Part shown: piece by piece, positions 1,748 through 10,935 of the stretch
Layout: every line of letters begins with the position of its first letter
Position numbering within the stretch: position 1 is the stretch's first letter
Source of the DNA: Dehalococcoidia bacterium
GTDB taxonomy: Bacteria > Chloroflexota > Dehalococcoidia > JAENJB01
Assembly (NCBI GenBank): GCA_030690705.1
Contig: JAUYGE010000081.1
Span: 1 to 10,935 of the forward strand
Reading direction: 5' to 3'
DNA length: 10,935 nucleotides
Notes under the pieces: generated by a model
Databases searched by the model: none
What the model was told of the DNA's origin: nothing
What the model saw: only the letters and a program-made list of their open reading frames with translations
Made by a program: the position numbers and the translations under genes

Positions 1748-1966
1748 CTACCAGGCCAACGGTATCCTGCGCTCGCGGACGGGGAAGCAGTAGATAGCAT
1801 CCTGGGGACATTCCCGCTCGCACAGGAAGCACCCCTGGCAATCGCGCAGGTACTTGATGTAGACCTTGTTGGTCTCTCTGTCCATGCGCAGGACATCCAT
1901 GGGACAGTAGTCCACGCAGATTTCACAGCCGTCGCATAGCTCCCAGTCTATTCTCCTTACGCCCAT
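1748..1966 (-). CDS. Small 2x[4Fe-4S] ferredoxin-like subunit, module 1
   Basis: The product is 72 residues with two classic clusters of cysteines: Cys11-x2-Cys14-x2-Cys17-x3-Cys21-Pro and Cys43-x2-Cys46-x2-Cys49-x3-Cys53-Pro, as in bacterial-type dicluster ferredoxins. An extra Cys lies at 60. The ATG overlaps the end of the AprA-like flavoprotein gene by 10 bases (ATGGGCGTAA). It has its own site AAAGGAG at 1974-1980, 7 bases upstream. This suggests translational coupling and a roughly stoichiometric complex. In AprAB, an AprB subunit with two [4Fe-4S] clusters carries electrons to or from the FAD of AprA. This protein is about half the size of AprB and lacks its C-terminal tail. It is identical at 51 of 72 positions to the module-2 ferredoxin. 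The electron-carrier role is well supported. The physiological partner is inferred from the overlap. Confidence 0.92.
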   Translation of the reverse strand: MGVRRIDWELCDGCEICVDYCPMDVLRMDRETNKVYIKYLRDCQGCFLCERECPQDAIYCFPVRERRIPLAW

Positions 1967-3684
1967 GAGACCGCTCCTTTCTCAATCTTGATGGCGCCAA
2001 TATTCTCAGCGGCCTGCCATAGGGGGTGAAGGTGTTCCGGCCGCTCCGGCCGGAAGCGATACCTCCCCATGGGCACGTCCTCGGTGCTTATCTTGAGATT
2101 CTCCCCCTCCTGCTTCATGTTGATCCACTTGAGCCAGTTGACGTTGTCGGTGTAGGGGTAGTCCTCCCGCAAGGCTACGCGGGACTCCGTCCGGAAGAGG
2201 GCGCTCTTGAGCTGGAGCTCGGCTATCTTCGCCATGCTGCTCGCCTCGATGGCCATGCGCAAGTAGTGATGGTCGTAGGCCTGGAGCAGGGGCGCCTGGT
2301 TCTTCAGTATGTCCTCCACCTCCGCAATAGCCTTCTTCATGCGCTCTCCATGCCTGATGAGCAGCACAGTGTAGGGGGCGACGACCTCCTGAACGGCCAG
2401 CACCACCTGGTCGGGCTCGATGCCGTCCTTCCTCTGCAAGGGCTGGTAAAGCCGCTCCCTGAGCTCCGCCACCTGCGCGCGGTCAATCTGAGGCTCGCCC
2501 GCCTCCTGAGCGTAGCGGGCCGCCGCGACGCCGGCGGTCACCCCCGAGGTTGCCGCACAGCCCAGGCTCTTGGTCATGGCCTGGGCCGCCGCCGATTCGC
2601 CGCAGGCGAACAGGCCGGGCAGCGACGACTGGAACCGGCGGTCCACGGCGAGGCCTACCTGGGCGTGAGGGGCGGTGATCATCCACTCGATGGGCTTGAC
2701 GAACCGGTCCCCGACCAGGAAGCCGGCCCTCTGGTGCATCAGGCTCGCCAGAGGCAGGGCCTTCTTTATACGGCCCACCTGCTCCGGATCGAGATGCGTC
2801 ATATCCATGTAGATAGGACCCTTCCCCTGCCGGACCTCCAACCCCATGGCCAGGCAGCGCATGCCGGCGATGGCGCGGTCCTTGCGGACGGGGTCGTACT
2901 TCTCCATGAACCGCTCGCCGCGGCCGTTGAGCAGGCGGCCACCCTGGCCGACATACATGTTCATGCCCGGCCCTATGTCCCAGTGGGCGACGAAGGCGTT
3001 GTTGAGCGAGAAGTCGCTCTCGGTGTCGCACACCGTCGCCCCGGCCCGCAGGGCCGCCACCGTGCCGTCGCCGGTGGTATCCCGCTGCCCCGGCGGCAGG
3101 CTCTTGTAGCGGCACATGCCCGAGGCCAGAATGGTGACCCCTGCCTTGAAGATATGGAATTCGCCGTTCATAACATCGAAGCCGGCGGCGCCGACGACCC
3201 GCCCGTCGTGAGTGAGGAAGTCGGTCACCATCGCCCGATTGACCTGCTCCACGCCCTTCTCCAGGGAAGCTTTGCGCATGGCCTCCATGAGGTTGGGGCC
3301 GTTAAACATGAGGCCGAGGTCGCGGGTCCAGCCGGGCACCCGCTCCAGCTCACCGCTGTCTTTCCGCACGAAGTCCACCCCATAGGACATCATGTCCTGC
3401 ATCACCAGATGGGCCTGCTCCAGGTGGTCCTGGACGCGGTCCTGCATCCGCAGGTAGCCGCCGTCCCTGACCATATCCTTGAACATGGCATCCAGGTCAT
3501 CGGTAGGCAGAGGGACGTTGAAGAAGCCGGCGGCGAACGCGCTGCAGCCGCTCTTGCCGACGTTGCCCTTGCAGACCTGGAGCACCCGTTTGGCCCCGGA
3601 CTCCCGGGCCTTGATGGCCGCGAAGGTGCCGGCGATGCCGCCGCCGATCACCAGGACATCGGTCTCGTGAGTTACATCAGACAT
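1957..3684 (-). CDS. AprA/FrdA-like FAD-dependent oxidoreductase, module 1
   Basis: The product is 575 residues from the ATG at 3684. The site AAGGAGGG (3692-3699) stands 7 bases upstream, so the GTG at 3702 is less likely. The N-terminal Rossmann motif [11 protein letters not shown] (residues 9-19) binds [17 protein letters not shown] (43-53) and DTTGDG (202-207) follow, and [10 protein letters not shown] (354-363) is the C-terminal flavin-contacting motif of the fumarate reductase/succinate dehydrogenase flavoprotein superfamily. Length and overall pattern resemble the adenylylsulfate reductase alpha subunit (AprA) more than FrdA. His340, in APHAQVGL, falls where FrdA has its HxxxGG substrate histidine. 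No signal peptide or heme motif is seen, so it is cytoplasmic. It probably passes electrons to the overlapping ferredoxin. I would not call it AprA: the rest of a sulfate-reduction locus (sat, qmo, dsr) is absent, and AprA active-site residues could not be mapped. Confidence 0.9.
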   Translation of the reverse strand: MSDVTHETDVLVIGGGIAGTFAAIKARESGAKRVLQVCKGNVGKSGCSAFAAGFFNVPLPTDDLDAMFKDMVRDGGYLRMQDRVQDHLEQAHLVMQDMMSYGVDFVRKDSGELERVPGWTRDLGLMFNGPNLMEAMRKASLEKGVEQVNRAMVTDFLTHDGRVVGAAGFDVMNGEFHIFKAGVTILASGMCRYKSLPPGQRDTTGDGTVAALRAGATVCDTESDFSLNNAFVAHWDIGPGMNMYVGQGGRLLNGRGERFMEKYDPVRKDRAIAGMRCLAMGLEVRQGKGPIYMDMTHLDPEQVGRIKKALPLASLMHQRAGFLVGDRFVKPIEWMITAPHAQVGLAVDRRFQSSLPGLFACGESAAAQAMTKSLGCAATSGVTAGVAAARYAQEAGEPQIDRAQVAELRERLYQPLQRKDGIEPDQVVLAVQEVVAPYTVLLIRHGERMKKAIAEVEDILKNQAPLLQAYDHHYLRMAIEASSMAKIAELQLKSALFRTESRVALREDYPYTDNVNWLKWINMKQEGENLKISTEDVPMGRYRFRPERPEHLHPLWQAAENIGAIKIEKGAVSWA

Positions 3685-3691
3685 GCTCTCA

Positions 3692-3699
3692 CCCTCCTT
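3692..3699 (-). promoter_or_regulatory. Shine-Dalgarno site of the module-1 flavoprotein
   Basis: On the minus strand AAGGAGGG lies 7 bases before the ATG at 3684. It overlaps the alternative GTG start at 3702, which argues for the shorter protein starting MSDVTHETDV. Confidence 0.75.
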
Positions 3700-3720
3700 C
3701 ACTCTGTTCAGGACAAGCTC

Positions 3721-3868
3721 TGCCCCCTCTCTCCTTTTGACAAAAGGAAGAGAGGGGGTGATGGTTTCTTTAGAGAGGCTGCGCCCCTCTCAGACGCCTG
3801 CTACCCTCTCCGTTTGGAGAGGGGACGCCCACTTTTCACGCGGTTATGCGGCCCTCTTAGACGCCTCC
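3721..3868. repeat. Two-unit hairpin repeat upstream of the module-1 flavoprotein
   Basis: Unit A (about 3721-3802) starts with CCCCCTCTCTCCTTTT-GAC-AAAAGG-A-AGAGAGGGGG, a long near-perfect hairpin with one bulged A. It continues with AGAGAGGCTGCGCCCCTCT (3772-3790) and CAGACGCC. Unit B (about 3803-3868) repeats the plan in decayed form: CCCTCTCC-GTTT-GGAGAGGG (3804-3823), then TGCGGCCCTCTTAGACGCC. A single unit of the same element lies at 8950-9018, upstream of the paralogous flavoprotein. The start of unit A is about 36 bases upstream of the ATG at 3684. It could be a MITE/REP-like element, an mRNA-stabilising or terminating stem, or both. No transposase is present here. Confidence 0.7.
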
Positions 3869-3926
3869 TAGTTCAAATCCCAATCTTGGAATAACAGATG
3901 TGTGAGGAGTCTACTGACCACCCCGT

Positions 3927-4136
3927 TCCCCGGCCGGGATGCCGCTGGAGCTTGCCGTCGGGCAGCCTCTCAAACACCACGCCAAAGCCCTCCATTTCCT
4001 TGAGCCTGGCGGGGAAATCGTCGTAGTGGTCCTGGAGACGTTCCTGGTCGCAGAGATAGTGGGCGCGGACGACCATGTCGGTGAACATCCGCTCGCGGTC
4101 GTCTTCTTCAGGGAGGAAGAGAACGGACGACATCAT
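3927..4136 (-). pseudogene. Internal fragment of a third AprA-like flavoprotein gene
   Basis: Read leftward from 4136, about 60 residues (from EEDDRE to LQRHPGRG) align without gaps to residues 61-121 of the module-2 flavoprotein. By eye 33 of about 60 positions are identical, including HYLCDQE/HFLCDQE, RLKEM/RIKEM and GKLQR. Homology stops after GRG. The frame then runs through 17 unrelated residues to a stop at 3873. The N-terminal FAD-binding Rossmann motif is absent, because the neighbouring reductase gene ends only 30 bases upstream. Nearly all of the catalytic region and the C-terminus are also absent, so this cannot be a working flavoprotein. It is closer to module 2 than to module 1, so it is the remnant of another paralog rather than a piece of the adjacent gene. 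I see no gene in the remaining 54 bases to 3873. Confidence 0.75.
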
Positions 4137-4165
4137 CGTTTCTTCATATGTTGTGGAGTCTCTCG

Positions 4166-5605
4166 TCAGGATACATCCCGGCTTGCCAGCGCCTGCCGGG
4201 CCGCTTCTCTGCCGGCGATGCGGCCGAAGACCAGGGCGGTGGCCAGTCCTGAGGAGTCTCCGGAGTTATAGCTTCCCATGTACGTCCTCACGCCACCGAC
4301 GGTGTAGGGCTTTCCGAAGGCCCAATTGACGATGGAGCCGGCGGCGTAGAGGCCGGGGATGGGCTTGCTGTCCCGGTCCAGCACTTGGGCGGCGCTGCTT
4401 ATCTTCAGCCCGCCGAGCGGGTGGTTCAGCCCCGGAATCACCGGATAAAAGGCGTAGAAGGGCGGCGTATCGATCTTCTGGGCGTTTTCTGTCTTGGGTA
4501 TGGGCAGCCCGAGGGCCTTGCCGTCCTTGACGGCGGCGTTGAACTCGTCGACCGCCTTCTTCAGACGCGCCGGCTGCATGTCTATCTTGATTGCCAGATC
4601 CTCGAGGCTCTGGGCCACCTGGAATACCTCTTCGCCTCGCGGATAGGCCTTGTAGACGTCCGGGTACATGGCCCTCACCTTCTCATCGAATATGAGGGCG
4701 GCCTTGTTCCGGGGCTGGTAGGCGATGGAGTTGGCTATAGTGTCGCTGTCGGCGATGCCTTCATCGATGAACCTCTGGCACTCCATGTTCAGGTATATGC
4801 CCAGGGGGTAGATGAGCCTTATGCGGCGGGACGGCCCCTCCCCGTAGAACTTGTCGGTGGTACGGATGTGGCAGGTGCTCAGGTTGGCCATCTGCGCTCC
4901 CAACTCCAGCGCCATCAGGTGCCCATCGCCGGTGTTGGTGGGACAGCCGGTGAGGACAGTGCCATAGGCTATGTCCGGGCCCACGTACTTGAGGAGCATC
5001 TCGTGGTTGGCCTGGTAGCCGCCTGTAGCCAGGATGACGGTTCCGGCATGTAGGTCGGCGATGCCGTTCTCGCTCCTGGTCCGCGCCCCGGTCACCTGCC
5101 CGCTCTCATCCGTCAACAGCTTCACGGCCCTGGCCTGGAACTGGATGGTGACGCCCCGGTCCTCGACGGCCTGGTACAGGTACCTGATGAGACCAGGGCC
5201 CCTTCCCCTCACCAGGGTACTGGCGAAGATGGGCCTTCTCTCCAGAAAGGGTATCTTCAGGTCGTCGCGGAGCCAGCGGCAGTCGCCGGGCAGCCTTTCC
5301 AGGTAGGTCCTCATCAGGTCCAGGTCGACCCGGCCCCATCCCCTGACCCGGTGACGATCGAGCAGTTCCTCCAGGGGCGCCTCCAGCTCAAAGCGGCCCA
5401 GACCTCCGCCGCCGGCGCGGGCGGTGTCGTTGGCGGGCCCGCCGGGGATGATCGCTCTTATCCCTTTGCCGATCATCGGGGGCAACTTGTCCACGACTGC
5501 CGCCCGGGCGCCGGCCTCCGTGACTTCGATGGCGGCCACCAAGCCGGCCATGCCAGCCCCAAGGATGAGGACGTCTGGCTGAACGGTGGAACTCTTTCTG
5601 CTCAA
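4166..5605 (-). CDS. FAD-binding flavocytochrome-c/fumarate-reductase-type dehydrogenase (heme-less)
   Basis: The product is 479 residues from a TTG at 5605, chosen because GGAGGAGGT (5615-5623) stands 9 bases upstream. A TTG at 5659 would add 18 residues but has no such site. DVLILGAGMAGLVAAIE (residues 11-27) is the FAD Rossmann motif. VILATGGYQAN (190-200) and TNTGDGH (223-229) contact the flavin. NHPLGGL (394-400) carries the substrate-binding histidine His395. IPGLYAAG (416-423) and LVFGRIAG (458-465) complete the flavocytochrome-c fumarate-reductase signature. Relatives include soluble fumarate reductases, tricarballylate dehydrogenase (TcuA-like) and 3-ketosteroid dehydrogenases. There is no CxxCH heme motif and no signal peptide, so it is a cytoplasmic flavoprotein that reduces or dehydrogenates a small acid or cyclic ketone. 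It is only distantly related to the AprA-like proteins and has no ferredoxin overlapping its end. Its exact substrate is unknown. Confidence 0.88.
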   Translation of the reverse strand: MSRKSSTVQPDVLILGAGMAGLVAAIEVTEAGARAAVVDKLPPMIGKGIRAIIPGGPANDTARAGGGGLGRFELEAPLEELLDRHRVRGWGRVDLDLMRTYLERLPGDCRWLRDDLKIPFLERRPIFASTLVRGRGPGLIRYLYQAVEDRGVTIQFQARAVKLLTDESGQVTGARTRSENGIADLHAGTVILATGGYQANHEMLLKYVGPDIAYGTVLTGCPTNTGDGHLMALELGAQMANLSTCHIRTTDKFYGEGPSRRIRLIYPLGIYLNMECQRFIDEGIADSDTIANSIAYQPRNKAALIFDEKVRAMYPDVYKAYPRGEEVFQVAQSLEDLAIKIDMQPARLKKAVDEFNAAVKDGKALGLPIPKTENAQKIDTPPFYAFYPVIPGLNHPLGGLKISSAAQVLDRDSKPIPGLYAAGSIVNWAFGKPYTVGGVRTYMGSYNSGDSSGLATALVFGRIAGREAARQALASRDVS

Positions 5606-5614
5606 GGTACAGGC

Positions 5615-5623
5615 ACCTCCTCC
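5615..5623 (-). promoter_or_regulatory. Shine-Dalgarno site selecting the TTG start at 5605
   Basis: Minus-strand GGAGGAGGT is followed by 9 bases and TTG, which begins MSRKSSTVQPDVLI. The FAD motif then falls at the usual distance from the N-terminus. The longer frame from 5659 would translate through this site. Confidence 0.65.
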
Positions 5624-5714
5624 GCGTGAGGCATGGTCAGCTTGGTCTTCCCAAGGCAAGACCTGCTGGCGAGCATATCACCTTTGTGTCTTCAGTGTCC
5701 AGCAGCTTCAGACA

Positions 5715-5842
5715 GTCACTGCGAGCCCGGATGCAATAGGGGCGAAGCAATCTCACCCTGGTTCTTCCAAGGAGTTCCTTCCCCAATAAGAACATCTCCT
5801 ATGAAAGAGTGATGTATCGGGACGCCTTCGTGGCAATGACAG
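5715..5842. repeat. Degenerate copy of the GAAGCAATC palindromic repeat in the divergent intergenic region
   Basis: Left end GTCACTGCGAG (5715-5725) and GCGAAGCAATCTC (5742-5754), with right end CCTTCGTGGCAATGACAG (5825-5842), recall the arms of the repeat at 10076-10157 (CATTGCGAGG...GAAGCAATCC / ...GCCTCGCAAAGACA). The middle has drifted. The element fills much of the 294-base gap between two divergent genes (5605 leftward, 5900 rightward), so promoters for both must lie around or within it. I could not identify convincing -35/-10 boxes and see no other gene in the gap. Confidence 0.5.
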
Positions 5843-5899
5843 TTTTGGGTACCCAGTGGTAGAATAGGCGCCGACCGACATGGAAAGCAGATTGCAGAC

Positions 5900-6982
5900 T
5901 TGACCGGTGGTCCGGAGCATCACAACCACCGAGAGACGCTCTTAAAGGCCGTCCCCGGACTGTTATTAACCTTGGGACTGGCGATAGTAGCCTTCGGCAC
6001 CTGGTGGTTCCTCGCCAATACCTGGCTCAAGTTCAGCGCCCTCTTGTGGGCTTTCATGTACTCTATCATCGCGGCAAATTTGGTGCCGGCGCTGTCCAGC
6101 AAGAGATTTCATCAGGGGATCGATCTGTCCTCCACCCATTTGCTCAAGTTCGCCATCGCTCTGCTTGGCTTGACGTTCAGCGCTTCGGTGTGGGTTGAGC
6201 TGGGCGGGATGGGCATAGCCGCGGTAATCATGAATCTTCTCTTCACCTCGGCTTTCGGATATGTCTTCTGCAGATATGTCTTGAAGCTGGATGGGGCGCT
6301 GCCCTTGCTGCTGATGGTCGGCACATCCATCTGCGGCGCAACGGCCATCGCCGCGACGGGGCCGGCCCTCAGGGCAAAGGCGGAAGAAATGGGGTTGGCG
6401 GTGGCGGTCGTCACACTCTTCGGGTTGGTGGCGATGTTTGGCTATCCGCTGCTATATTACGGGCCTCTCAACCACTGGCTGAATAATCTCCCTCTTGCCT
6501 ACGGCATGTGGGCCGGAATGGGCATCCACGAGACGGCCCAGGTGATAGCCGCTGGCAGCCAGGTGGAAGGTGCCGCCTCCATCGCCATATCGGCGAAGTT
6601 CATCCGGATATTCATGATCGGGCCGATGGTTTTCGCGAGCCTACTTATGTCTCGGGGCTCCTCCAGCAAGGCGTCTGCCAGACGGATCAGGTGGGCCACG
6701 CCGTGGTTTGCCGTGGCTTTCATCGCCCTGACGTTAGTGAACTTCGGACTGGACTCGCTGCCGATTCGCAGCTGGTGGGCCGACTTCAACAACGGCTATT
6801 TGAAGTCGGGGGTCACTTTTCTTCTGGCCTGGTCGTTCGCTGCCGTTGGCCTGAAGGTAAGGTTCTCTGCCATTCGCACTGTCGGATTCAAAGCGATTGT
6901 CGGAGGCATCGTGGTCTCGGTAGTGGCTGGGGGAAGCGCGCTCCTTCTCGTCAAATATCTGTGGATCCCGCTGTCGGGCTGA
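5900..6982 (+). CDS. YeiH/UPF0324-family putative sulfate-exporter-type membrane protein
   Basis: The product is 360 residues from a TTG at 5900. The weak purine stretch GGAAAG at 5882-5887 is the only candidate ribosome site. The protein is strongly hydrophobic throughout, with about ten predicted membrane segments. It carries the two hallmark motifs of the UPF0324 (YeiH) family: GTSICGATAIAA (residues 141-152) in one helix and WAGMGIHETAQVIAAG (204-219) in another. The C-terminal part VTFLLAWSFAAVGLKVRF is also typical. The family is annotated as a putative sulfate exporter, largely from gene neighbourhood in sulfur metabolism, and direct transport evidence is limited. Full length matches the family (about 330-360). 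It is the only rightward gene between two leftward redox blocks, and its stop lies 13 bases from the end of the module-2 ferredoxin gene. Confidence 0.9.
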   Translation: MTGGPEHHNHRETLLKAVPGLLLTLGLAIVAFGTWWFLANTWLKFSALLWAFMYSIIAANLVPALSSKRFHQGIDLSSTHLLKFAIALLGLTFSASVWVELGGMGIAAVIMNLLFTSAFGYVFCRYVLKLDGALPLLLMVGTSICGATAIAATGPALRAKAEEMGLAVAVVTLFGLVAMFGYPLLYYGPLNHWLNNLPLAYGMWAGMGIHETAQVIAAGSQVEGAASIAISAKFIRIFMIGPMVFASLLMSRGSSSKASARRIRWATPWFAVAFIALTLVNFGLDSLPIRSWWADFNNGYLKSGVTFLLAWSFAAVGLKVRFSAIRTVGFKAIVGGIVVSVVAGGSALLLVKYLWIPLSG

Positions 6983-6995
6983 ATATCTCCCATCT

Positions 6996-7214
6996 CTACC
7001 ACGGCAGGGGTATCCTTCTCTCGTAGACCGGGACGCAGTAGACAGCGTTCTCCGGGCAGACGCGCTCGCAGAGGAAGCAGCCCTGGCAGTCCCTCAGATA
7101 CTTGATGAAAGCCTTCTGGCTCTTTCCATCCATTTTCAGGACATCCATGGGACAGTACTCGACGCAAATGCTGCAGCCGGTACATCTGGCAACGTCTATC
7201 TTTCTTACGCCCAT
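6996..7214 (-). CDS. Small 2x[4Fe-4S] ferredoxin-like subunit, module 2
   Basis: The product is 72 residues with the same cysteine spacing as the module-1 ferredoxin (Cys11/14/17/21 and Cys43/46/49/53, plus Cys60). The region IKYLRDCQGCFLCER (37-51) is identical in both. Differences cluster in the N-terminal loop (VARCTGCS against WELCDGCE) and the tail. The ATG overlaps the flavoprotein stop by 10 bases through the same ATGGGCGTAA. The purine-rich GAGGGCGAG at 7223-7231 is a weaker ribosome site than in module 1, so reinitiation may matter more here. By family it is an electron carrier for the FAD of its partner and is most likely cytoplasmic. It is convergent with the YeiH-like gene 13 bases away, with no terminator hairpin between them. 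Confidence 0.92.
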   Translation of the reverse strand: MGVRKIDVARCTGCSICVEYCPMDVLKMDGKSQKAFIKYLRDCQGCFLCERVCPENAVYCVPVYERRIPLPW

Positions 7215-8938
7215 TTCACACGCTCGCCCTCGATTCGTATTATGCCCTGTCTCTCAGCCACTCGCCAAATCGGGTGGAGGTCTTTCCCCTTCTCTGGTTT
7301 GAGCTTATATCGATGCAAAGGCACTTCAACTGCACTTGTGCTTATCTGCTCCCCTTCCTTCTTTACCGTTACCCACTTCAACCAGTTGATATTGTCCATA
7401 TAGGGATAGTCCTCCCTCGCCGTCTCCCTCGATTCCTGCCGGAACAGGGAACTCTTCAAGAGGAGCAGAGACACCAACGCCAGGTTGCGAGCCTCTACAG
7501 CCATCCTCAAATAATGAGGATCATAGGCCTTCAACAAAGGTACCTGGTCCCTCCAAATACTCTCGATTTCCTTCAATGCTCTCGACATACGCTCCTCACT
7601 TCTCAAGGTCCATACATCATAGGGCATGACGGCTTCCTGTAGCGACAAGAGCACTTGATCAGGCTCGATCCCATCCTTCCTCAGCAGGGGCTCTAGCATT
7701 TGCCTCTTCAATTCACTGATCTGTTCCGCGTCCGCTTCCGGCGGCGATACCTCGCGGGCGTACTCTGCCGCATGTTTGCCGGCCCTGGCTCCAGAGGTCA
7801 TCGCGCCGGCAAGCGCGTTCTGCCCCCAGGTCCCGCTTGACGGCATGGCATCTCCGCAGGCAAAAAGCCCGGGGAGTGTGGTCTCATACCTCCTGTTGAC
7901 CAATAGCCCACCCCGGACGGATGGACCCTCAGTGACCCATTCTATCTTCCTGGTGAACCGGTCGCCAGCCAAAACCCCCGCCCGCTCCCACATCATCATC
8001 GGCGAGGGGATCACTCGTCTCATCAGACGCACCTTCTCGGGCTCGATGTGGGTCATATCGAGGTACAGCGGCGTTTTCCCGCGCTTGGCTTCTATAGCAC
8101 AGGCAGCGCTCAAAGTGTGAAGCTCCGTCCGTTCTTTGAGGACTGGATCGTACTTCTCAACAAATCTCTCGCCGTCAGCATTGACCAAAGTGGCGCCAGA
8201 ACCCATGTACATGTTGTTGCCAGGGCCGATATCGTACATCGCCGGGCCTGTATTTACTCCTCCGCTATCAAAACCCGTCAGGGTCAGGCCGGCTCGGTAG
8301 GCGGCGGCGATGCCATCCCCGCTGAGGTTGCGATGGCCCGGTCTCCGTGTCTTCAACCAGGTCCGCCCCGCAGCCAGAACTACGCTCTTGGCCATGAATT
8401 CGTGGACCTCACCGCTATCCGTATTGAATCCGATTGCACCGGCGATTCTGCCGCCGTCTGTCAACAGATCGACTATCATTACTCTGTCAACGAGTTTCAC
8501 TCCGGTTCTTGACGCTGCCCTCCTCATCGCTTCCATCATCTGGTACCCACCGTGAAACATGATGCTGGTAAACTTTCCCCGGCCGACCTGGCGCTGGAGT
8601 TTGCCCTGGGCCGTCTTCACGAACTCAACTCCAAGACTGTCCATCTCCTTGATTCTGTCGGCGGAGTCATCCAGGTGGTCTTCGAGCTTCTCTTGATCGC
8701 AGAGGAAATGCGACTTTATCACGGCTTCCCTGAAGCAATCCTCCCTGTCGTCCTCGTCAGGCGAAAAGGCCTGTATCACACCGGCGGCAAAGGCACTGCA
8801 TCCACTTCTACCTACGCTCGCCTTATCTACTTGCACCACCTCAGCAGCGCCTGCTTCCCTGGCCTTGATAGCGGCAAAGGTCCCTGCGATGCCACCGCCG
8901 ATCACCAGGACATCGGTCTCGTGTTCTTGGTTGTTCAT
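7205..8938 (-). CDS. AprA/FrdA-like FAD-dependent oxidoreductase, module 2
   Basis: The product is 577 residues from the ATG at 8938. It aligns without gaps to the module-1 flavoprotein through at least residue 360, and again near the C-terminus ([15 protein letters not shown] against REDYPYTDNVNWLKW). FAD motifs are [11 protein letters not shown] (9-19), [11 protein letters not shown] (43-53), SGDG (206-209) and [10 protein letters not shown] (354-363). Where module 1 has His340, this copy has Ser340 (GPSVRGGL), and the residues around it differ, which suggests a different substrate or reaction. The Glu in the ACGE motif is Asp here. The start ATG overlaps the stop of the OppF gene (ATGA), linking it to an ABC importer. 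It probably works with the ferredoxin overlapping its 3' end. The family is firm and the substrate unknown. Confidence 0.9.
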
Positions 8939-10035
8939 CCTCTTACCCCCTGCCCCCTCTCTCCTTCGACGGAGAGAGGGGGTTCATATTTTATAGAGGG
9001 GCTGCGCCCCTCTATGACAACCCCCTCATCCTGGCCTTCCCTCCCCGGCAGCGTTACGAGCTTGTAGTGGAGATGGCAGGATACCCAGTGACCGGGGAAT
9101 TTCTCGATAAGCGGCGGCTCTATATGCGGGCAGATTTCAAAGACCTTGGGACAACGGGTGTGGAAGCGACACCCGGAGGGCGGATTCATCGGCGAGGGGA
9201 CGTCCCCCTGGAGCACGATGCGCTCCCTTTTGAGATGAGGGTTGGGGATGGGAAGCGCGGATAGCAGGGCCTCGGTGTAGGGATGGAGGGGGTGCGCGAA
9301 GATTTCCTGCGTGGGCGACAGCTCGGCAATCTTCCCCAGGTACATCACCAGCACCCGGTGCGAGATGTGGCGTATCACCCCCAAGTCGTGCGCAATGAAC
9401 AGGTAGCTGAGCTTGAATTCGTCCCTTAGTTCCTGGAGCAGGTTCAGTATCTGGGCCTGCACCGAGACATCCAGGGCGCTGACCGGCTCGTCGGCGACGA
9501 TGAGCCTGGGGTTCACCGCCAGGGCGCGGGCGATGCCGACCCGTTGCTTCTGGCCGCCGCTGAACTCGTGAGGGTAGCGCTGAGCATACTCCGGCTCCAG
9601 GCCCACACGCTTCAGGAGCTCCTCCACCCGGCGCCAGCGCTCCTTTTCATCGCCCAGGCCGTGGACGAGCAAGGCTTCGTCTATGGAATCGCCGATGCGC
9701 ATCCGGGGGTCGAGGGACGACTGGGGGTCCTGGAAGACCATCTGCGCCTTGCGGCGGAAATCCTTCAGCGCAGCTCCGTTCAGCTTCGTTATCTCCTGCC
9801 CCTCGAAGAAGACCTCCCCCGAAGTCGGCTCCTCCAGCCGGAGGATGGTGCGACCGAGGGTGGACTTGCCGCAGCCCGATTCCCCCACCAGCCCCAGGGT
9901 CTCCCCCTGTTCCATATGGAAGGAGACACCGTCCACCGCCTTGACGGTGCCGATGTGATGCGCCAGCAGGCCCGCGGTCATGGGATAGTATTTCCGCAAG
10001 TCGCGCACTTCTAATAGCTTGCCGTTCTGGGTCAG
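8935..10035 (-). CDS. oppF: Oligopeptide/dipeptide-type ABC transporter ATP-binding protein (OppF/DppF-like)
   Basis: All ABC ATPase motifs are present (numbering from a start at 10035): Walker [10 protein letters not shown] (51-59), Q-loop [11 protein letters not shown], signature SGGQKQR (159-165), Walker B LIVADEP (178-184) and switch His216. A C-terminal oligopeptide-transporter extension follows, with Cys289, 295, 302 and 320, which in relatives can hold an iron-sulfur cluster. I place the start at a CTG (10035) behind GAGGGAGG (10041-10048). It restores the conserved N-terminus [12 protein letters not shown], whereas the GTG at 10008 cuts into it. The last 27 or so residues ([19 protein letters not shown] and neighbours) are encoded by the hairpin repeat at 8950-9018. 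It powers uptake with the OppD partner upstream. The stop overlaps the flavoprotein start (ATGA). The importer type is certain. The substrate may be a peptide, nickel or another small solute. Confidence 0.92.
8950..9018. repeat. Single hairpin-repeat unit upstream of the module-2 flavoprotein, inside the OppF 3' end
   Basis: It contains two perfect stems: CCCCCTCTCTCC-TTCGAC-GGAGAGAGGGGG (8952-8981) and AGAGGGGC-TGC-GCCCCTCT (8995-9013). The same two-stem design and shared wording (TGCCCCCTCTCTCCTT, GCTGCGCCCCTCT) occur at 3721-3802, upstream of the other AprA-like gene. Here the element is translated in frame as the C-terminus of the OppF-like ATPase. It begins 12 bases before the flavoprotein ATG, so mRNA folding could affect flavoprotein translation. 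Confidence 0.75.
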
Positions 10036-10048: not shown

Positions 10049-10075
10049 TAACCACATCAGCGCCGCTCAGTGGTG

Positions 10076-10157
10076 TCATTGCGAGGGGCAAAGCCCCGAA
10101 GCAATCCGAACCCATTTCCCCAACGGATTGCTTCGTCACTTCGTGCCTCGCAAAGAC
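10076..10157. repeat. Palindromic intergenic repeat (CATTGCGAGG...CCTCGCAA) between oppD and oppF
   Basis: The left arm 10077-10108 (CATTGCGAGG then GAAGCAATCCG) and the right arm 10124-10152 (CGGATTGCTTCG then GCCTCGCAA) are inverted complements around a 15-base centre. The ends are TCATT and AGACA. This is the best-preserved member of the family whose remnants occur at 671-682 and 5715-5842. It resembles the short 'CATTGCGAG...GAAGCAATC' elements scattered through many environmental bacterial genomes. It fills the gap between the two ABC ATPase genes, and the stop codon of the upstream gene (10136-10138) is inside it. It may attenuate or stabilise the transcript between them. Confidence 0.8.
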
Positions 10158-10935
10158 AGAACGGGCTGAAGGCCAAACACCGGAGACTCCCGGTGAAGAT
10201 AGCAGGCCACCCGGCGGCCGGGAGCGGTGACGTACTCCGGCGGCCTCTTCTCCAGGCACATGGGCATGACATAGGGACAGCGCGGATTGAAGTTGCAGTC
10301 GTCCGGCGGATCAATCAGGCTCGGGATAGTGCCGGGAATGCACTCCAGCTTCTGCTTTGCGCCGGAGGGGTCAGGCAGGCAGCGGAGCAGCGCCTGAGTA
10401 TAGGGGTGCTGGGGCTTATCGAAGATATCCAGGAGCGAGCCGACCTCGGCGACCCGGCCCCCGTACATCACCACAATCCTGTCGGCCATCTCCGCCACCA
10501 CCCCCATGTCATGGGTGATGAAGATAATGGACATCCTCTGCTGCTTCAGATTGCGGAAGATATCGAGCACCTGGGCCTTGGTGGTGACGTCCAGGGCAGT
10601 GGTCGGCTCATCGGCGATGAGAATCTCGGGATTGCAGGCCAGCGCCTGGGCCACCATCACTCTCTGCTTCATCCCCCCCGAGAACTGGTGAGGGTAATCG
10701 TCAATCCGCTTCTCGGCCGCCGGGATGCCTATCTGCTTCATCAACTCGAGGGCCCTCTCGCGCGCCTGACTCTTTGTCATACCCAGATGGAGCCTCATCG
10801 GCTCAGCTATCTGGTCACCCACCTTGAGGACCGGATTCAGGGAGGACTGGGGGTCTTGAAAGACCATCGCTATCTTGGAACCGAGCAGACGGCGCATCTG
10901 GGCGGGGGGATATGTCAGAAGGTCCTCTCCGTGGT
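10136..10935 (-). CDS. oppD: Oligopeptide/dipeptide-type ABC transporter ATP-binding protein (OppD/DppD-like), 5' end beyond window
   Basis: The frame stays open to the right edge, reading HGEDLLTYPPAQMRRLLGSK before the Q-loop. The ATG at 10897 is therefore internal, and the Walker A region lies outside the window. Visible motifs are the Q-loop [13 protein letters not shown], signature SGGMKQR, Walker B ILIADEPTTALD and the switch His in FITHDMGVVAE. An oligopeptide-transporter C-terminal domain has spaced cysteines (CNFNPRCPYVMPMC and VACYLH), as in relatives that carry an iron-sulfur cluster. About 266 of the usual 320-340 residues are visible. SGGMKQR and TTALDVTTKAQ are typical of the D-type partner, while the OppF-like gene downstream supplies the other half of the heterodimer. 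The extreme C-terminus (SLRGTK) is encoded by the palindromic repeat. Permease and binding-protein genes, if present, must lie to the right of the window. Confidence 0.92.
   Translation of the reverse strand, partial: HGEDLLTYPPAQMRRLLGSKIAMVFQDPQSSLNPVLKVGDQIAEPMRLHLGMTKSQARERALELMKQIGIPAAEKRIDDYPHQFSGGMKQRVMVAQALACNPEILIADEPTTALDVTTKAQVLDIFRNLKQQRMSIIFITHDMGVVAEMADRIVVMYGGRVAEVGSLLDIFDKPQHPYTQALLRCLPDPSGAKQKLECIPGTIPSLIDPPDDCNFNPRCPYVMPMCLEKRPPEYVTAPGRRVACYLHRESPVFGLQPVLSLRGTK

Follow-up and report, generated by a model that had tools for sequence, protein, structure and literature searches.

Two flavoprotein-ferredoxin gene pairs of a Dehalococcoidia bacterium appear to represent a distinct, uncharacterised branch of the fumarate reductase/AprA superfamily

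The window analysed here, 10,935 nucleotides of contig JAUYGE010000081.1 from a Dehalococcoidia bacterium (assembly GCA_030690705.1), contains two gene pairs, each composed of a flavoprotein gene (FP1 or FP2) and a gene for a 72-residue ferredoxin (Fd1 or Fd2). It is part of contig C254 of genome G000 (1.42 Mb, 74% complete), and several protein matches carry Dehalococcoidia or Chloroflexi names. With a probability of about 0.6, the pairs are two-subunit oxidoreductases that belong to a distinct, uncharacterised family of the fumarate reductase/AprA superfamily and act on an imported organic acid or coenzyme A (CoA) ester. Family here denotes a branch of a known superfamily that is distinct and uncharacterised, and, as judged from the sequences, this branch is separated by its position in the tree, by the absence of a Trp from the ferredoxin and by the flavoprotein C-terminus. 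The pairing of a flavoprotein with a small ferredoxin is itself already known from AprAB, from the 3′-phosphoadenosine 5′-phosphosulfate (PAPS) reductase of Methanothermococcus and from PRK08275-type operons. As the last of these also pair a flavoprotein with a ferredoxin of 77-81 residues, a short ferredoxin alone does not define a new family. No paper describing the flavoprotein-ferredoxin (FP-Fd) pair was found among openly licensed PubMed Central papers, judged mostly by title and the start of the abstract, and passages of a paper on SAR202 (PMC5395668) do not mention it.

FP1 and FP2 both contain FAD_binding_2 and Succ_DH_flav_C domains, and the FrdA/AprA fold is borne out for FP2 by an AlphaFold2 model and a Foldseek comparison. 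In their global alignment, 280 of 579 columns are identical and four gaps take up 6 characters, and Fd1 and Fd2 are identical at 51 of 72 positions. An earlier note on this DNA, made from the sequence alone, had described two leftward loci with flavoproteins of 575 and 577 residues and 72-residue ferredoxins matching at 51 positions; coordinates, sizes and the ungapped ferredoxin match were all reproduced. The note had also reported no sat, qmo or dsr gene nearby, and a Pfam and NCBIfam scan of 11 distinct window proteins gave no match to these families. The identical 10-base overlap that it described at the two loci was recovered, with ATGGGCGTAA found exactly twice within the window, at both FP/Fd junctions (two copies in 0 of 200 shuffles). 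Its statement that the first 360 residues of the flavoproteins align without a gap was incorrect, three of the four gaps falling there.

A query with the single FP2 sequence against the genome contigs recovered no relative, and a query with an alignment (A1) recovered 53 loci. Flavoproteins were placed in a core set of 29 rows and an outer set of 20 rows, which omit duplicate contigs (L063, L064, L066, L067), same-genus orthologues (L062, L077, L081) of L049, L051 and L052, flavoproteins that are partial, split or open-ended (L065, L079, one of two in L080, L103, L117) and later finds in genomes G041, G045 and G105. In a careful tree of 51 rows, leaving out 35 of 86 rows that are mainly distant, long or near-identical and include some core members, the window flavoproteins lie inside a 25-row clade with bootstrap and Shimodaira-Hasegawa-like approximate likelihood ratio test (SH-aLRT) supports of 100/95. 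This clade is nested in a 38-row clade (99/97), with a 10-row clade (100/98) as sister that contains AprA, PAPS reductase, PRK08275 proteins and three further proteins of the window genome. A quick tree of all 86 rows is concordant, the 29-row core having an SH-aLRT of 95. FP1 groups with its orthologue at locus L085, and FP2 groups with three paralogs from the same genome (L048, L049, L050) and with L087. Beta- and Deltaproteobacterial members (L088-L092) are nested within an otherwise mainly Chloroflexi core, and lateral transfer is therefore suggested by the sequences.

Sequence comparison and Foldseek both give the alpha subunit of the Methanothermococcus PAPS reductase as the nearest solved structure, and the layout of an alpha subunit with a ferredoxin is similar in adenylylsulfate (APS) and PAPS reductases. 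The pairs could on these grounds be AprAB or PAPS reductases that reduce or form activated sulfate, but most of the evidence makes this highly improbable. When the core was forced together with AprA and PAPS reductase on the quick tree, the log-likelihood fell by 81 (approximately unbiased (AU) test, p = 4e-7, the tested group having been named after the tree was seen). The AprA profile (TIGR02061) scores FP1 at 74.6 bits and FP2 at 98.9 bits, far below its cut-off of 641.75. Trp234, Arg265 and His398 of AprA (Archaeoglobus fulgidus numbering) are taken here to be active-site residues. None of the 29 core rows has Trp in the Trp234 column, which is a gap in all of them, or Arg in the Arg265 column. 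His is likewise absent from the His398 column (0/29), but this loop is poorly aligned and FP1 carries a His there.

The ferredoxins point the same way. A figure legend of PMC10322725 proposes Trp42 in the beta subunit of PAPS reductase as an electron relay, and in structure 8a8o this residue follows the Cys that opens the second cluster motif. At this position the 24 core ferredoxins have Gln (21), Glu (2) or Met (1) and never Trp, which is present in all six PRK08275-type ferredoxins, in a PAPS-reductase-like ferredoxin from Ilyobacter and at L054. ATP sulfurylase (PF01747) and APS kinase (PF01583) had no match in G000 (74% complete), G001 or G009, in a search that did not extend to CysD-type enzymes; the control genomes gave matches in 5/14 and 11/14, respectively. 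The single PF01077 gene of the sulfite/nitrite reductase family in each of G000, G001 and G009 tempers the case against a sulfate reductase.

The pairs could also be fumarate reductases or succinate dehydrogenases whose small iron-sulfur subunit is unusual, and several source databases name proteins of this kind as the flavoprotein subunit of these enzymes, others only as FAD-dependent oxidoreductases. This is also very improbable. The residues compared were those of SdhA to which we assign roles, namely the FAD-linking His, the catalytic Arg, the His of HYVMGG, the Arg of HGANR and the His of QFHPTG. The catalytic Arg and FAD-linking His are found in 0/29 rows each of the core alignment, as are the HYVMGG His and HGANR Arg, in columns that are mostly gaps, and the QFHPTG His is present in 4/29. 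The window genome in addition encodes a true SdhA (L059, 750 bits), which occupies a separate branch of the 51-row tree.

A ferredoxin gene is located downstream of 24 of the 29 core flavoproteins, at offsets of -19 to +159, and a 25th (L102) has a split ferredoxin. There, the variable loop of the ferredoxin is interrupted by a GltD-like NAD(P)H oxidoreductase, the whole forming a single 531-aa protein (L102:6709-8304, + strand). The split layout is common, with both halves recognised by motif in 110 of 120 homologues among the matches listed, L102 included; among those matches the C-terminal signature of the flavoprotein partner was found only for L102 itself and P0122. A ferredoxin was found for 9 of the 20 outer members, a looser search adding L076 and L080, and it is upstream of the flavoprotein in L106 and L110. 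Because five PRK08275-type operons also show it, the pairing with a small ferredoxin probably predates the FP-Fd family.

The C-terminal Trp of the flavoprotein is invariant across 37 aligned members, of which 16, including FP1 and FP2, end in Trp-Ala. As a result of this conservation, the end TGG GCG TAA overlaps the ferredoxin start ATG GGC GTA (Met-Gly-Val), and the common ATGGGCGTAA overlap can be read as protein constraint together with common descent. An exact -10 overlap occurs in 14 core flavoproteins and L102 (15/29), though two pairs among these 15 loci (FP1/L085 and L050/L087) are same-genus orthologues. The 10-base identity was rejected as an independent DNA signal, as the overlaps of relatives vary within codon freedom (ATGGGCATAA, ATGGGGATAA, ATGGGGGTGA and others).

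Five core flavoproteins are present in the window genome. A search with FP2 gave 18 matches in that genome and 25 in G001, of the same genus, fragments included, and between 1 and 6 matches in each of 36 of the 41 genomes searched. Across the class, A1 matches at E <= 1e-120, outer members included, were found in 9 of 294 genomes, four candidates being scored per genome. PF02910 domains number 18 in G000, 18 in G001, 15 in G009, 6 in G041, 35 in G045 and 6 in G058; the G045 matches amount to a large set of FrdA-type flavoproteins in a 6.5-Mb genome of the same class. The earlier note had suggested a distinct two-subunit flavin adenine dinucleotide (FAD)/Fe-S oxidoreductase family that expands within one genome and is not the sulfate-reduction enzyme. 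Tree position and the conserved pairing in other genomes support the family, the flavoproteins do not fall inside AprA in the trees or by the AU test, profile scores and active-site columns agree in this, and the five core members and 18 FP2 matches in an incomplete genome bear out the expansion.

Genes adjacent to the core flavoproteins form the basis for the proposed function. Transporter genes were recorded, on either strand, in 20 of 28 core loci (DctM in 10, SBP_bac_8 in 5, major facilitator superfamily in 3 and Opp in 2), a CoA ligase near the flavoprotein in 7/28 and UbiD in 5/28. A GltD-like NAD(P)H oxidoreductase is present in 5/28, always on the same strand and either downstream or fused. 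Neighbouring genes were called with our own open reading frame (ORF) caller rather than a gene finder, and DctQ was labelled by its position. These tripartite ATP-independent periplasmic (TRAP), Opp and other transporters, CoA ligases, UbiD and GltD-like oxidoreductases suggest a two-electron enzyme for imported organic acids that is linked to NAD(P)H or ferredoxin. The flavoprotein would hold FAD non-covalently and provide the substrate pocket, and the ferredoxin, in complex with it, would use two [4Fe-4S] clusters to pass single electrons between FAD and a partner that depends on NAD(P)H or ferredoxin. The pair would thereby carry out the two-electron reduction or dehydrogenation of a small organic acid or CoA ester delivered by the neighbouring transporter, possibly in the breakdown of organic matter. 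Pocket residues vary among the paralogous flavoproteins, which therefore probably serve different substrates.

The direction of the reaction may be oxidative, with the flavoprotein a dehydrogenase feeding substrate electrons to the ferredoxin rather than a reductase. This variant, compatible with the oxidoreductase reading, has somewhat less than an even chance; the features described permit either direction, several of the flavoproteins stand beside TcuA-like flavoproteins, which are named for a dehydrogenase, and there is no direct counterpoint.

A different role is suggested by AsfA/AsfB, described in PMC2864759 and PMC4267179 as a reductase-ferredoxin system acting on aromatic sulfonates, its cluster including an ABC (ATP-binding cassette) transporter. 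An AsfAB-like electron-transfer pair for the desulfonation of imported organosulfonates would suit the YeiH-family putative sulfate exporter gene adjoining FP2, and PRK08275-type operons combine a flavoprotein and a 75-81-aa ferredoxin with ABC transporters, one of them also with a TauE/SafE exporter. However, the window flavoproteins are outside the PRK08275 branch, and AsfA enters this comparison by description and not by sequence. Families of sulfur metabolism account for 0 of the 10 recurring neighbour clusters scanned, and TRAP, CoA ligase and UbiD recur instead. Desulfonation is considered unlikely.

Several observations weigh against an oxidoreductase for imported organic acids. The annotated clusters show no transporter at 8 of the 28 core loci, and the neighbouring genes are variable, some being on the opposite strand or kilobases away. 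GltD-like genes were seen in about two independent lineages, namely L102 and the L088-L092 clade, and the window genes have none next to them; the cluster labels rest on one scanned representative for each of the 10 recurring clusters scanned. The partner is not always adjacent, since the available DNA downstream of L049, L082, L086 and L105 contains no ferredoxin gene. The YeiH gene beside FP2 would also suit sulfonate chemistry, and we know of no member of the FP-Fd family with a measured function.

A broader and decidedly tentative proposal, which we think more likely wrong than right, is that one conserved Fe-S module, a ferredoxin lacking the relay Trp and sometimes interrupted by an NAD(P)H oxidoreductase, serves many substrate-specific paralogous flavoproteins behind uptake transporters, the set being exchanged or lost by recombination between flavoprotein genes. 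If true, some Dehalococcoidia would hold a broad set of redox enzymes for organic acids that are hard to degrade.

Features of the window are listed in Table 1. Recent tandem duplication of FP1 and FP2 was rejected given their 280 identities in 579 columns and their placement in different supported subclades with their own relatives; on sequence grounds they are old paralogs. In L085, from the same genus, the Opp operon runs directly into the FP1 orthologue, and a 5.3-kb segment holding FP2, Fd2, YeiH, the TcuA-like gene and a flavoprotein remnant is absent. L085:5881-6130 joins the 5′-end of FP2 (window 8891) to the body of FP1 (window 3597), with a frame break in the assembly, and P0041 is an uninterrupted chimera of the FP2 start and the FP1 body. 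This layout is consistent with a deletion by recombination between paralogous flavoprotein genes, although the window may instead have gained an insertion, or L085 may have been misassembled. The second ABC ATPase gene shares 96% DNA identity over 775 bases with the ABC ATPase region that precedes the L085 orthologue of FP1, and the remnant shares 94% over 199 bases (3921-4119) with the L050/L087 paralog.

TcuA-like flavoproteins recur beside the flavoproteins of the window genus (window 4166-5659, L048:2711-4288, L065:2515-4032 and L075:2238-3761), the copies in L065 and L075 being seen through DNA similarity only. A 30-base repeat bearing a palindrome lies upstream of both flavoprotein genes (3766-3795 and 8989-9018). 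It was considered as a shared regulatory element, but five copies of its core were found in the genome, with contigs C33, C206 and C238 among their locations, so that it is not confined to flavoprotein genes. A 35-base inverted repeat at 10074-10158 is probably a dispersed element, because its arm recurs twice in L057 with 94-97% identity.

Table 1. Features of the 10,935-nucleotide window
Feature	Position	Strand	Basis or remark
FP1, FrdA/AprA-superfamily flavoprotein	1957..3684	-	575 aa from ATG; 581 aa from upstream GTG
Fd1, ferredoxin, 72 aa, two four-Cys cluster motifs	1748..1966	-	ORF, domain scan, motif
FP2, FrdA/AprA-fold flavoprotein, 577 aa	7205..8938	-	ORF, domain scan; AlphaFold2 model, predicted local distance difference test (pLDDT) 93.2
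Fd2, ferredoxin, 72 aa, two four-Cys cluster motifs	6996..7214	-	ORF, domain scan, motif
ATGGGCGTAA overlap, FP1 stop/Fd1 start, 10 bases	1957..1966	-	sequence count
ATGGGCGTAA overlap, FP2 stop/Fd2 start, 10 bases	7205..7214	-	sequence count
Oligopeptide/dipeptide-type ABC transporter ATPase (DppF-like); stop overlaps FP2 start (ATGA)	8935..10008	-	
Second oligopeptide/dipeptide-type ABC ATPase	10136..10897	-	Pfam/NCBIfam scan, DNA comparison
TcuA-like FAD oxidoreductase	4166..5659	-	212 bits, under NCBIfam cut-off of 369
Remnant of a third flavoprotein, ~85 residues, nearest the L050/L087 paralog	3912..4196	-	
YeiH-family putative sulfate exporter	5900..6982	+	PF03601; 148.8 bits, under TIGR00698 cut-off of 232.6

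Because several databases use SdhA/FrdA names and the closest relative of solved structure is a PAPS reductase, both functions could be counted wrongly in surveys of metagenomes. The clear signature of a C-terminal Trp, the overlap and a ferredoxin without the relay Trp lets annotation split the FP-Fd family off, and the number of paralogs in some Dehalococcoidia suggests an unexplored side of organic-matter use by uncultured bacteria.

Among known systems, the PRK08275/NF006131 operons were read in Mesorhizobium, Aquabacterium, Sinorhizobium, Paraburkholderia, Cupriavidus and Nostoc. Like the FP-Fd loci, they encode a flavoprotein of ~580 aa followed 9-18 bases on by a 77-81-aa ferredoxin (5/6 records; the Nostoc ferredoxin gene stands 3.2 kb further on), and they have ABC transporter genes close by. 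Unlike them, their flavoproteins share ~29-30% identity with FP2 and form a separate clade, their ferredoxins keep the Trp (C-W-[YF]-C, 6/6) that is missing from the FP-Fd family, and each operon carries a HEAT-repeat gene. FP1 and FP2 score 222 and 232 bits with the PRK08275/NF006131 profile, against a cut-off of 587. Flavoprotein, ferredoxin, ABC transporter and HEAT-repeat genes are found together in the PRK08275-type loci L135, L136, L137, L138, L139 and L142, with DUF971 or TauE/SafE in some. In the Ilyobacter PAPS-reductase-like locus, the pairing with a small ferredoxin occurs beside cysC and cysD.

TcuA tricarballylate dehydrogenase and fumarate reductase/succinate dehydrogenase share the FAD_binding_2 superfamily with the flavoproteins and differ in the active-site columns; they also use different partner subunits. 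AprAB (1jnr, 2fja, 3gyx) resembles the FP-Fd pairs in fold and in the plan of a two-subunit Fe-S flavoenzyme but differs in the tree and in the active-site columns. The PAPS reductase of Methanothermococcus thermolithotrophicus (PDB 8a8o) has an FAD-containing alpha subunit and a 2[4Fe-4S] beta subunit and, according to PMC10322725, retains the catalytic residues of APS reductase; the matching columns differ in the window family, and its beta subunit, at 104 aa, has Trp42. AsfA/AsfB, by their description (PMC2864759, PMC4267179), likewise combine a reductase and a ferredoxin with an ABC transporter, but the recurring neighbours of the FP-Fd pairs point mostly to carboxylates.

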